Both the position numbers and the translations under genes were made by a program. A stretch of DNA of 64,000 nucleotides from Roseimicrobium sp. ORNL1 (lineage in GTDB: Bacteria > Verrucomicrobiota > Verrucomicrobiia > Verrucomicrobiales > Verrucomicrobiaceae), in contig NZ_CP049143.1 of the NCBI RefSeq assembly GCF_011044495.1, positions 6,138,001 to 6,202,000 of the forward strand, in the 5' to 3' direction. This document shows, piece by piece, positions 35,212 through 62,322 of the stretch (position 1 is the first letter of the stretch; every line of letters begins with the position of its first letter). The notes beneath the pieces are model-generated. The model saw only the letters and a list, made by a program, of their open reading frames with translations, ran no database searches and was not told where the DNA came from.

Positions 35212-35246
35212 ATACGCCGGCCAGAGGCCAGCGCTCCCAGGGCTGC
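35212..35246. repeat. REP-like repeat, copy A
   Basis: 35-bp copy starting ATACGCCGGCCAGAGGCCAG, with a GGCC-AGA-GGCC hairpin core. It matches copy B at 59982-60016 at 34 of 35 positions (opposite strand), and copy C inside the RAYT transposase gene (60261-60291) over 31 of 31. It lies 25 kb from the transposase, between the frameshifted membrane gene and the argD terminator. Confidence 0.85.
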
Positions 35247-57939: not shown

Positions 57940-59034
57940 ATGCTTCTCTGCCTCGGCCTGAATCATCGCACGACTCCCATTGAGTTGCGCGAACGGCTGG
58001 CCTTTGCCGAGAGCAAACAGCCGGAGGCCGCCCTGCAAATCCAGGGGCTCAAGGGCTTTGAGGAAAGCGTGGTGCTCTCCACGTGCAATCGCGTGGAGCT
58101 CTTCGCCTCGTGCGAGCATGCCGACGGTGAACAGGCGCTGGACGTCCTCTTTGACTATCTCGTCGCCCACTTCGGACTCACGCAGCCGCAGCGCGAGGCG
58201 CTGAGTTGCTACCGGCTCTCCCAAGCGGACGCGGCAAGGCACCTCTTCCGCGTGGTGAGCGGACTGGACTCCATGGTGCTGGGTGAGACGGAAATCTTCG
58301 GTCAGGTGAAGGGCGCCTACGACACGGCGCTGAAGACCGGCACCACGGGCCGCATGCTGAACAAGCTCTTCCAGCGCGCCTTCAGCGTGGGCAAGCAGGT
58401 GCGCAATGAGACGAACATCCAGCGCGGCTCCACCTCCGTGGGCAGCGTGGCCGTGGATGTGGCGGCAAAGATTTTCGGCAGTCTCAAGGATTGCCGCGTG
58501 CTCCTCATCGGCGCCGGTGAGATGAGTCGCACCTGCGCACAGAGCCTGCTCTCGCGTGGGGCGAAGAGCATCATCATCTCCAACCGCTCCCACGAGCGCG
58601 CGGTGGAACTCGCGAAGGAAATGAAGGGTGAAGCCCTGCGCTTCGAAAACTGGGAACGCGCCGTGCATGATGTGGACATCATCATCAGCAGCACCAGCGC
58701 GCCGCACTTCGTGGTGACCCCGGAACTGGTGGGCCCTACCATGCGCCGCCGCCACGGACGCCCGCTCTTCATCATCGACATCGCGGTGCCGCGTGACGTG
58801 GATCCCCTCGTCCATGACATTGAGGACGTGTACCTCTACAACGTGGACCAGATGAAGGGCATCGCGGATGAAGGTCGTCGTGACCGCGAGCGTGCCCTGG
58901 TGCAGTGCGAGGAAATCATCGAAGAGCAGTTGCGGAAGTTCGGGTATCACGAAGATTCGCCCCCCCTCCCGGTGGTCGTCACCAAACTGCCGTCCCCGCC
59001 TTTGAATCTCGAAACCCCGTCTCTGGAACCTTGA
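57940..59034 (+). CDS. hemA: Glutamyl-tRNA reductase HemA
   Basis: 364 aa from the ATG at 57940 (MLLCLGLNHRTTPIELRERL). HemA reduces glutamyl-tRNA to glutamate-1-semialdehyde, the first step of C5 tetrapyrrole synthesis. Features are LNHRTTPIELRERLAF, the catalytic cysteine in LSTCNRVELF (residues about 46-55), VVSGLDSMVLGETEIFGQVK, LLIGAGEMSRTCAQSL (NADPH loop), STSAPHFVVTPE and FIIDIAVPRDVDP. The C-terminal dimerisation domain is short, so the protein is smaller than E. coli HemA (418 aa). Its stop overlaps the hemC start by four bases. Confidence 0.94.
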   Translation: MLLCLGLNHRTTPIELRERLAFAESKQPEAALQIQGLKGFEESVVLSTCNRVELFASCEHADGEQALDVLFDYLVAHFGLTQPQREALSCYRLSQADAARHLFRVVSGLDSMVLGETEIFGQVKGAYDTALKTGTTGRMLNKLFQRAFSVGKQVRNETNIQRGSTSVGSVAVDVAAKIFGSLKDCRVLLIGAGEMSRTCAQSLLSRGAKSIIISNRSHERAVELAKEMKGEALRFENWERAVHDVDIIISSTSAPHFVVTPELVGPTMRRRHGRPLFIIDIAVPRDVDPLVHDIEDVYLYNVDQMKGIADEGRRDRERALVQCEEIIEEQLRKFGYHEDSPPLPVVVTKLPSPPLNLETPSLEP

Positions 59035-59981
59035 ACGAAAAAGCGCTCATCCTCGGCACGCGTGGCAGTGAACTCGCCCTCTGCCAGGCAGACATGGTCA
59101 CTGCAGCCCTGAACCGGGCTCACCCGACGCTCAAGATTGAGCGCCGCATCATCGCTACCTCCGGCGACAAGCGGCCGGATCTGCGATTCAGCGAGTTCAA
59201 CGAGGTCGCCCATGTGGACAAGGGTATCTTCATCAAAGAACTGGAGATGGCGCTCGAGTCGGGTGAGATCGACTTCGCCGTGCACAGCCTGAAGGACGTG
59301 CCCAGCGACCTCGCGAAGGGATTTGCCATCACCGCCGTGCTGCCACGTGCGAATACGGAAGACGTGCTGCTGACTCGCGATGGCTATACCCTGGACACTC
59401 TCCCTGCCGGGGCCAAGATCGGCACGAGCAGCGTGCGACGCCAGCGCATGATCAAATGGCGACGCCCCGACGTGGTGACGGAGGAGATTCGTGGCAACGT
59501 CCCCACGCGTGTGCGGAAGCTTTTCGCCCCCTCTTCGCAGCTCGATGGCATCCTGCTCGCCCGCGCTGGCCTGGAACGCCTGGGTCTGTTGAAAGGTGAC
59601 GCGGTGCAACTGGATGGCCAGACCATTCCTGCCACGATTCTCGGCGGCGATGACTTCCTTCCCGCAGCGGGACAAGGCGCGATCGGCATCGAGATTCGCG
59701 CGAACGATGAAGCCACGCATGCAGTGCTGCAGGCCATCAATGAACCGGTGACCTTTGCCAGCGTGCTCGCAGAGCGTGAATTCCTGCGTCTGCTCGGTGC
59801 CGGCTGCCAAACTCCTGTAGGTGCACGGACTTTTGTGAATGGCAACGAACTGCGTATGCGCGTGCTCGTCTTCTCCGAAGAAAATGCCGAGGCCGCACCC
59901 GTGGACCTGGAGGCTGTTGGCTCAACTACGGATCCACTCGCCCTCGCGACCGAACTGGCGAGCAAGGTGCAGAAACACTGA
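59031..59981 (+). CDS. hemC: Porphobilinogen deaminase HemC
   Basis: 316 aa. The start is set to the TTG at 59031, in a TTGA overlap with the hemA stop; there is no in-frame ATG close to the N-terminus of the conserved protein. HemC joins four porphobilinogen units to hydroxymethylbilane. Features are LILGTRGSELALCQADMV, FIKELEMALESGEIDFAVHS, LKDVPSD, IGTSSVRRQ, LFAPSSQLDGILLARAGLER, and AGCQTPVGA, whose cysteine holds the dipyrromethane cofactor. It is coupled to hemA. A REP-like sequence begins directly after its stop codon. Confidence 0.93.
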   Translation: MNEKALILGTRGSELALCQADMVTAALNRAHPTLKIERRIIATSGDKRPDLRFSEFNEVAHVDKGIFIKELEMALESGEIDFAVHSLKDVPSDLAKGFAITAVLPRANTEDVLLTRDGYTLDTLPAGAKIGTSSVRRQRMIKWRRPDVVTEEIRGNVPTRVRKLFAPSSQLDGILLARAGLERLGLLKGDAVQLDGQTIPATILGGDDFLPAAGQGAIGIEIRANDEATHAVLQAINEPVTFASVLAEREFLRLLGAGCQTPVGARTFVNGNELRMRVLVFSEENAEAAPVDLEAVGSTTDPLALATELASKVQKH

Positions 59982-60016
59982 GCAGCCCTGGGAGCGCTGG
60001 CCTCCGGCCGGCGTAT
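59982..60016. repeat. REP-like repeat, copy B
   Basis: This copy begins at the base after the hemC stop codon and runs opposite to copies A and C. It differs from copy A (35212-35246) at one of 35 positions. It lies in the 65-bp gap between hemC and the convergent RAYT transposase gene. Confidence 0.85.
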
Positions 60017-60046
60017 TCGCGTACCACTCGCGCGACGCTCTCCTTA

Positions 60047-60658
60047 TCACTTCCGCCTTCCCGCGCTGCTCCACGGCCAGTCCTCCGCCTTCTTCACCAG
60101 ACCCGCCTTCACCGGGTTTTCCTCAATGTAGCGCACCACCTTGGCGTAGTGCTCCTCATCGCGAATGTACCGGTCATGGTACTCACGCTGCCAGAAGCGG
60201 CCCCGGCGCCGTACGAGCTTGTTTGCCTCCTTCGAAGTGAAGCTCTTCAGAGACTGCAACACGCCGGCCAGAGGCCAGCGCTCCCAGGGCTCGAGCACGA
60301 AATGTACGTGATTGGGCATGACACACCACGAGAGGAGACGGTAGCGGTCTTCATCGAAATACTGGAGAGCATCTTGCACCATGGTCGCGACACGCGGCTG
60401 CCTAAGCCAGCACTCTCCATGGCCAGCGTCGAGGTAGGCATCGATGCGCTTGCGGCATTCCAAATCTCCCTCGCCCGGAGGTAAATTCGCCAGCTCCAGC
60501 CGCCAGCGATCGAGGAGCACCTTGGGCATGGCATCTCCCAGGCGGATGGTCAGGGATTGGACCTGTCCTGCCTTGTCAAAATGCGGGAGATATCCCCGTG
60601 AGTACCAGCCTTCACCATCTGGCAAAGGTCGACGTTCACGACTGAAACGCGTCGTCAT
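60047..60658 (-). CDS. REP-associated tyrosine transposase (RAYT)
   Basis: 203 aa from the ATG at 60658; the frame continues upstream to 60808 but that part is not conserved-looking. It is a Y1/HUH-type single-domain transposase. The HUH pair is in WCVMPNHVHFVLEP (residues about 111-124), the likely catalytic Tyr lies in FWQREYHDRYIRDEEHY (155-171), and VRYIEENPVKAGLV (176-189) with WPWSSA is a RAYT signature. There are no inverted terminal repeats around the gene; RAYTs act on REP sequences instead. Residues 123-133 (EPWERWPLAGV) are encoded by a REP copy. It interrupts the heme operon and is on the opposite strand. Confidence 0.9.
   Translation of the reverse strand: MTTRFSRERRPLPDGEGWYSRGYLPHFDKAGQVQSLTIRLGDAMPKVLLDRWRLELANLPPGEGDLECRKRIDAYLDAGHGECWLRQPRVATMVQDALQYFDEDRYRLLSWCVMPNHVHFVLEPWERWPLAGVLQSLKSFTSKEANKLVRRRGRFWQREYHDRYIRDEEHYAKVVRYIEENPVKAGLVKKAEDWPWSSAGRRK
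60261..60291. repeat. REP-like repeat, copy C, inside the RAYT gene
   Basis: 31 bp identical to copy A. It lies wholly inside the transposase coding sequence and, read on the gene strand, encodes the residues just after the HUH motif. The adjoining ATA of copies A and B is not present here. Confidence 0.85.
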
Positions 60659-60795
60659 GCGATTTTTTCCATGAGAGTAGCTACGATCGATTTCCTTGCA
60701 AGATTTCACCCTGAGAGGAAGGCCACCGTTCCGTACTTGCGGGGCGTATTTTCGTGAGTGATGGAGTAGATTCCCGTTCCAAGCCAATTCCTCGC

Positions 60796-62322
60796 ATGCC
60801 TTCCTCATCCTCCAAATCCTCGAAACGCGGCATCTGCTACCTCGTAGGCGCGGGCCCGGGCGATCCCGGACTGCTCACGCTGCGCGGCAAGGAGTGCATC
60901 GAACTCGCGGATGTGGTGGTGTATGACTACCTGAGCAATGCCGACTTCCTCCGCTTTGCGAAGCCGGATGCGGAGAAGATCTATGTGGGCAAGAAGTCCA
61001 AGGATCACACGCTCTCCCAGGAAGGCATCAACAAGCTCATCGTGGAGAAAGCGCTCGCAGGCAAGGTGGTCACGCGCTTGAAGGGCGGCGACCCCGTGTT
61101 GTTCGGCCGCGGCGCGGAAGAAGCACAGGAACTCTCAGACGCCGGTGTGGCCTTTGAAATCGTGCCGGGCGTGACCTCCGCAATCGCAGGTCCGGCGTAT
61201 GCAGGCATCCCCGTGACGCATCGCTCGCATTGCTCGCAGGTCACCATCTTCACCGGCCACGAGGATCCCACCAAGCCGGAGAGCTCACTCGACTACGCGA
61301 AGATTGCCCAAGCTGACGGCACCAAGGTCATGCTCATGGGAGTGGAGCGCATCGGTGATATCGCGGCCAAGTTGATCGAACACGGCGCGAAGCCGGCCAC
61401 GCCGGTGGCTCTGACGCGCTGGGCTACGACCGGCAGGCAGCAAACCATCGAAGGCACGCTCGCGACGATTGCCCAGGTGATCATCGACACAGGTTTCAAG
61501 GCACCCGCGGTATGTGTCATCGGCAGCGTGGTGCTGGAGCGCGACAAGCTGAACTGGTTTGAAAATCGCCCCCTCTTCGGCAAGCGCTTCGTGGTCACCC
61601 GCACGCGCACGCAAGCAGGCGGGCTGAGCAAGCAGCTCTCCGAACTCGGGGCGAACGTCATCGAGATCCCCACCATCCGTATTGAGCCGCCGGAGGATCT
61701 GAAAGCCTTTGCGCAACTCGTGATGGACTCGCACACCTATGACTGGCTGGTCTTCACCAGTCCGAACGGCGTGGAGAAGTTTTTCGATATTTTTTACAAA
61801 CTCTACTCGGATGCCCGCAGCATCGGCGGAGTGAAGATTGCCGCCATCGGACCCGGCACGGCGGATAAGATCAAGCAGTACCACCTCGCGGTGGATCTGC
61901 TTCCCGAGAAATTCGTGGCGGAGGGTCTGGTGAAGGCCTTCAAGGAACAGGAGATCGAGAACCAGACGGTCCTGTGGGTGAAAGCCGAGCAGACCCGTGA
62001 GATCCTTGCCAATGAACTTACCGGCATGCGGGCCATCGTGGATGAAGCCATCGCCTATCGCACGGTGCCAGAGGATGCGAACCACGAAGCCATCGTGCGC
62101 TTCAAGGAAGAAGGCGCGGATGTCATCACTTTCACCAGTAGCTCCACGGTCGAGCATTTCCTCGATCTGGGATTAACGCTGCCGGAAGGGATCAAGATTG
62201 CCAGCATTGGCCCCATCACCTCCGAGACGCTCACCAAGCACGGACTGAAGATCGATATCGAAGCAGAAGAACATTCGATTCCAGGCCTCGTGCGCGCAAT
62301 TCAGGATCATTATGCGCAGTAA
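60796..62322 (+). CDS. cobA-hemD: Uroporphyrinogen-III methyltransferase/synthase fusion
   Basis: 508 aa from the ATG at 60796. Residues about 12-255 are a SUMT/CobA methyltransferase: CYLVGAGPGDPGLLTLRGKE, ADVVVYDYL, VVTRLKGGDPVLFGRGAEEA, PGVTSAIAGPAYAGIPVTHR and LMGVERI. Residues about 265-505 are uroporphyrinogen-III synthase (HemD): FVVTRTRTQAGGLSKQLSEL, DWLVFTSPNGVEKFF and DVITFTSSSTVEHFL. One protein thus closes the uro'gen ring and then methylates it towards siroheme or cobalamin. The fusion is known in other phyla. It belongs to the hem operon but is separated from hemC by the RAYT gene, so it may need its own promoter. Confidence 0.94.
   Translation: MPSSSSKSSKRGICYLVGAGPGDPGLLTLRGKECIELADVVVYDYLSNADFLRFAKPDAEKIYVGKKSKDHTLSQEGINKLIVEKALAGKVVTRLKGGDPVLFGRGAEEAQELSDAGVAFEIVPGVTSAIAGPAYAGIPVTHRSHCSQVTIFTGHEDPTKPESSLDYAKIAQADGTKVMLMGVERIGDIAAKLIEHGAKPATPVALTRWATTGRQQTIEGTLATIAQVIIDTGFKAPAVCVIGSVVLERDKLNWFENRPLFGKRFVVTRTRTQAGGLSKQLSELGANVIEIPTIRIEPPEDLKAFAQLVMDSHTYDWLVFTSPNGVEKFFDIFYKLYSDARSIGGVKIAAIGPGTADKIKQYHLAVDLLPEKFVAEGLVKAFKEQEIENQTVLWVKAEQTREILANELTGMRAIVDEAIAYRTVPEDANHEAIVRFKEEGADVITFTSSSTVEHFLDLGLTLPEGIKIASIGPITSETLTKHGLKIDIEAEEHSIPGLVRAIQDHYAQ

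Follow-up and report, generated by a model that had tools for sequence, protein, structure and literature searches.

REPs that lie inside genes, including the genes of their own transposases, have been described before. Quentin et al. (2018, PMC6006769) reported that subclass 2.4 TnpAREP genes harbour REPs inserted in frame, as a rule between HuH and Y, and Di Nocera et al. (2013, PMC3733652) reported intragenic REPs in several species, including Opitutus terrae (Verrucomicrobia). The latter are insertions in unrelated, often DNA-repair, genes, whereas in the locus described here the host gene is the REP-associated tyrosine transposase (RAYT) gene itself. In Pseudomonas, dispersed inverted REP pairs (REPINs) are likewise tied to a RAYT (Bertels and Rainey 2011, PMC3116915; Nunvar et al. 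2013, PMC3686654), although their head sequence and lineage differ from those studied here. Moreover, REPs have been reported to outlast their cognate RAYT (Nunvar et al. 2013, PMC3686654).

Our RAYT shares NH[IFV]H (here NHVH) and WQ with subclass 2.4, while its Y motif, YIEENP, is one residue off the YIxNNP of that subclass. The locus is a variant of the described phenomenon. The REPs of subclass 2.4 have a GT[AG]G foot, whereas those found here have a CCTGGGAG head without this canonical motif; in addition, the in-gene REPs of subclass 2.4 are insertions, in contrast to the in-gene copy reported here (copy C), which adds no length.

A RAYT gene with a REP in its coding sequence

The window, that is, the whole stretch of 64,000 nucleotides analysed, comes from a genome of a single 7.96 Mb contig (G000). 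The features relevant to this work are the following:

35214..35244, minus strand: REP copy A, an isolated intergenic copy
58905..59981, plus strand: hemC, the upstream neighbour, whose stop nearly abuts copy B
59984..60014, plus strand: REP copy B, which follows the hemC stop by 3 bp, lies 3' of the RAYT gene and is inverted relative to copy C
60047..60658, minus strand: RAYT gene, encoding 203 aa when read from the ATG at 60658, in a frame that is open to 60808
60261..60291, minus strand: REP copy C, inside the RAYT gene, in frame and on its sense strand, with head and 8-bp hairpin
60707..60753, plus strand: possible decayed 5' flanking REP (CCCTGAGAGG...GGGGCGTATTTTCG), uncertain
60754..62322, plus strand: cobA-hemD fusion, the other neighbour of the RAYT gene

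The assignment of the gene as a RAYT, proposed in the initial annotation, is well founded. The protein scores 101.1 bits against NF047646 (cut-off 80) and 41.2 bits against Y1_Tnp (PF01797), and its best solved relative is the E. coli TnpArep (4ER8). It thus combines the Y1 HUH fold with an HUH motif (MPNHVH) and a single catalytic tyrosine (in YIEENP), and residues H117, H119, Y177, N181 and P182 are invariant in an alignment of 30 proteins; judged from these residues, the gene is catalytically intact. It is also flanked by dispersed REPs, with copy B on the 3' side and only a doubtful relic on the 5' flank, where the segment at 60707..60753 aligns locally to the second REP variant (see below) with a score of 26, a value reached by 2 of 500 shuffles. 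Our searches found no homologue above ~60% identity. We also observed that residue 137, near the REP patch, is Leu, while it is Trp in 29/29 aligned relatives (HSWKS to QSLKS).

The initial annotation had placed three near-identical REP-like copies in the window, one of them within the RAYT coding sequence just after the HUH motif, and all are there: the 31-mer AGCCCTGGGAGCGCTGGCCTCYGGCCGGCGT matches at copies A, B and C, against 0.03 matches expected from shuffles. Copy C is identical to genomic REPs at 31/31 positions and encodes (E)PWERWPLAGV, residues E123-V133; these come a few residues after H117 and H119 of the HUH motif and before the catalytic tyrosine. What had been missed is that C is not an insertion, as judged from the protein alignment, which is ungapped across C on both sides. 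Relatives read ETxxGWPLAG where this RAYT reads EPWERWPLAG, and WPLAG, a point also overlooked, is native to the family (ETQAGWPLAGILHSWKSF in L051, ETRDGWPLAG in L054). Only PWER looks foreign: it ranks second of 177 among the least family-like four-residue windows, while WPLAGV is family-like. In a structural model (mean pLDDT 84), residues 117-124 form a strand with the HUH motif, residues 125-129 a loop and residues 130-148 a helix.

Could amino-acid conservation account for the match? It does so only in part. WPLAG is indeed a native family motif, but the codons of C have a probability of 6e-4 given their amino acids, and that of the exact 31-mer at this site is 10^-11.5 (amino-acid profile of 115 relatives combined with local codon usage). 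Among the ~115 homologues examined, none has a REP at the codon position of C.

The REP family in this genome, its sister species and beyond

The repeat is a genuine dispersed REP family with many more than the three copies first noticed. Genome-wide counts, which come from pattern searches and fetched loci, gave 63 matches to the 31-mer at up to 3 mismatches (reversed control, 0), and a profile over the fetched sites raised the count to 66 in G000 and found 35 copies in its sister species, G061. Aligned sites define a conserved block of 31 bp, from -2 to +28 relative to CCC, with weak or absent conservation in the flanking sequence, and the match between A and C extends over exactly this block. 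The unit has two parts, the head, AGCCCTGGGAG, and a hairpin with a stem of 8 bp, CGCTGGCC-TCY-GGCCGGCG; the canonical GT[AG]G foot is absent from the conserved unit (AGCCCTGGGAGCGC...) on either strand. About 22 inverted pairs, spaced 50-117 bp apart, occur in G000, so that many copies form REPINs, with a spacing of ~50-76 bp in many of them. In some of these the partner has the same head but the hairpin GCTGACG-TCC-CGTCGGC, a second variant that is found in both G000 and G061. With a crude gene model based on codon usage, the majority of copies are intergenic; the same model placed a few REPs inside other ORFs, mostly near the ORF ends, and we distrust these calls. The family therefore shows what is expected of REPs and REPINs, namely a short palindrome, many intergenic copies and inverted pairs. 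A literature search with the head sequence returned nothing relevant. None of the other RAYTs in G000 lies within 4.6 kb of a copy of this REP, and thus there is no other obvious mobiliser.

At least 12 REP sites of G000 have both flanks orthologous to a REP site of G061; therefore, the family predates the split of the two species. The RAYT gene has a different distribution. In G061 there is no RAYT between hemC and cobA, which are 36 nt apart, and the best RAYT of this genome shows 44% identity; across the other loci of the bacterial family in which both genes were found, the hemC-cobA distance is 0-85 nt, versus 815 nt in G000. Either this RAYT moved into the site recently, or G061 has lost it. 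As a separate observation, one orthologous REPIN (L006, G000 921420; L190, G061 C1:128497) has an interior that looks flipped between its inverted REPs in one of the species, which suggests an inversion between the arms.

In Verrucomicrobiota, Acidobacteriota, Pseudomonadota, Planctomycetota, Bacteroidota and other phyla, relatives of the RAYT have REPs next to them, on one side or on both, that share the head (CTGGGAGCGC) and differ in the hairpin, and the same REP class with other arms is present in other families of the order. The hairpin found here belongs to a series whose apex is A-T, G-C, T-A or C-G, and this hairpin variant, GGCCTCYGGCC, occurs in number only in this genus among the genomes searched. 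At the register of C, the codons of the relatives match the REP at a mean of 14/31 positions, versus ~8 elsewhere, with a maximum of 22/31; this similarity says nothing independent about direction, since the segment in the window is itself a homologue of theirs.

True in-frame REP insertions do occur in other RAYT genes: in the N-terminal part in L051 and L086, and in L056, where they also lie between HUH and Y. Each of these genes (L051:2869-3714, L086:1348-3825 and L056:2548-3810) has several in-frame REP or REPIN insertions, with around six REP units within one open frame in L056. Another RAYT of G000 (L046; G000:C1:4879454-4879478) has a palindrome, GGAGGCATGGCGAGGAACGCCATGC, at the same place as C; this inverted repeat, GGCATGGCGAGGAACGCCATGC, just after the HUH motif, is single-copy, and we rejected it as a second in-gene REP. 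Palindromic repeats of a different family (CACAGGCTTSCAGCCTGTG type) appear to be inserted in frame in hemC of two family members (L163, ~1040-1110; L165, ~920-1060), where they encode TGFQPV/TGLQPV-like peptides.

How the REP may have entered the gene

We consider the locus a REPtron, that is, a RAYT gene together with its cognate REPs; one unit of this family probably overwrote 31 bp of the RAYT gene itself. A short templated overwrite is favoured by the ungapped alignment and by the resemblance of this stretch to the REP, with frame and length left intact. Movement from REP to gene is the favoured direction, since G061 has REPs without this RAYT, REPs with the same head occur widely, and relatives lack the match at C. 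We infer that the native codons for xGWPLAG[IV] were by chance similar to the REP hairpin, at up to 22/31 positions as in relatives without a REP there, and that a REP-templated event, either gene conversion or microhomology-mediated strand exchange, turned the stretch into an exact REP, perhaps on single-stranded intermediates made by the RAYT. Such an event would have changed mainly the four residues PWER, in the loop that joins the catalytic strand to the helix after it, so that the reading frame was kept. The RAYT has presumably retained the ability to recognise and cut REP hairpins in single-stranded DNA, and the copy in its own gene would be among them. No benefit of the in-gene REP needs to be assumed.

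Some points weigh against an overwrite. No homologue above ~60% identity was found as a guide to the ancestral RAYT sequence, so the event itself is reconstructed from more distant genes; the RAYT could have been lost in the sister species; and the REPs described in other RAYT genes were inserted rather than exchanged for native sequence. The weak point is a coincidence that the model must accept: a REP frame encodes W..LAG exactly where the family has WPLAG. Because of it, a reverse or two-way flow stays conceivable. In a two-way exchange, the native GWPLAG codons, with their likeness to a REP hairpin, would have both captured a REP head and been the source of the C-G hairpin variant peculiar to the genus; we regard this as improbable.

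The recurrence of in-frame REP insertions in this RAYT group (L051, L056 and L086), as well as the published subclass 2.4 insertions between HuH and Y (PMC6006769), raise the alternative that a REP was inserted here too and that a later deletion restored the length. This course of events is unlikely: WPLAGV aligns as native sequence, without gaps on either side, and a deletion that compensated exactly would be needed as a further step. Copying out of the RAYT gene, so that the REPs of the genus, or at least their hairpin, derive from it, was one of the origins raised in the initial annotation, and the native WPLAG and the near restriction of GGCCTCYGGCC to this genus would fit it. However, the head and the general form of the hairpin recur, with different arms, in REPs of other families and phyla, the REPs of G061 exist without the gene, and the hairpin is just one of the apex series; with a REP class that is older and wider than the gene, and with related genes that lack the sequence at C, we hold this origin to be rather unlikely.

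It is also tempting to ask whether selection has kept the in-gene REP, as a self-target or as a hairpin in the mRNA that restrains the expression or activity of the RAYT. The exact unit, the intact hairpin on the sense strand and third positions that follow the REP where synonymous codons were available would all agree with this, but a recent event would look equally intact and C is unique among the ~115 homologues, making maintenance by selection quite improbable. Chance or protein constraint alone has next to no probability, even with individual residues that occur in the family and WPLAG native in L051 and L054, given the 10^-11.5 obtained for the site and a match that ends exactly at the REP boundaries. 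Of the two possibilities raised at the outset, it is therefore the tolerance by the gene of its own target that is favoured, a behaviour that is not new in view of the published cases (PMC6006769) and of L051, L056 and L086.

Implications for REPs and their transposases

This case bears on how REPs originate and on how RAYTs choose their targets. The case gives no support to an origin of REPs from RAYT genes. If a two-way exchange had taken place, a transposase gene would have reshaped its own target family. In-gene REPs are here extended to the REP class with the CCTGGGAG head, common to the RAYTs of many phyla. Under the overwrite that we favour, the case is an argument that a REP can replace coding sequence, at unchanged length, where a gene already resembled the REP.
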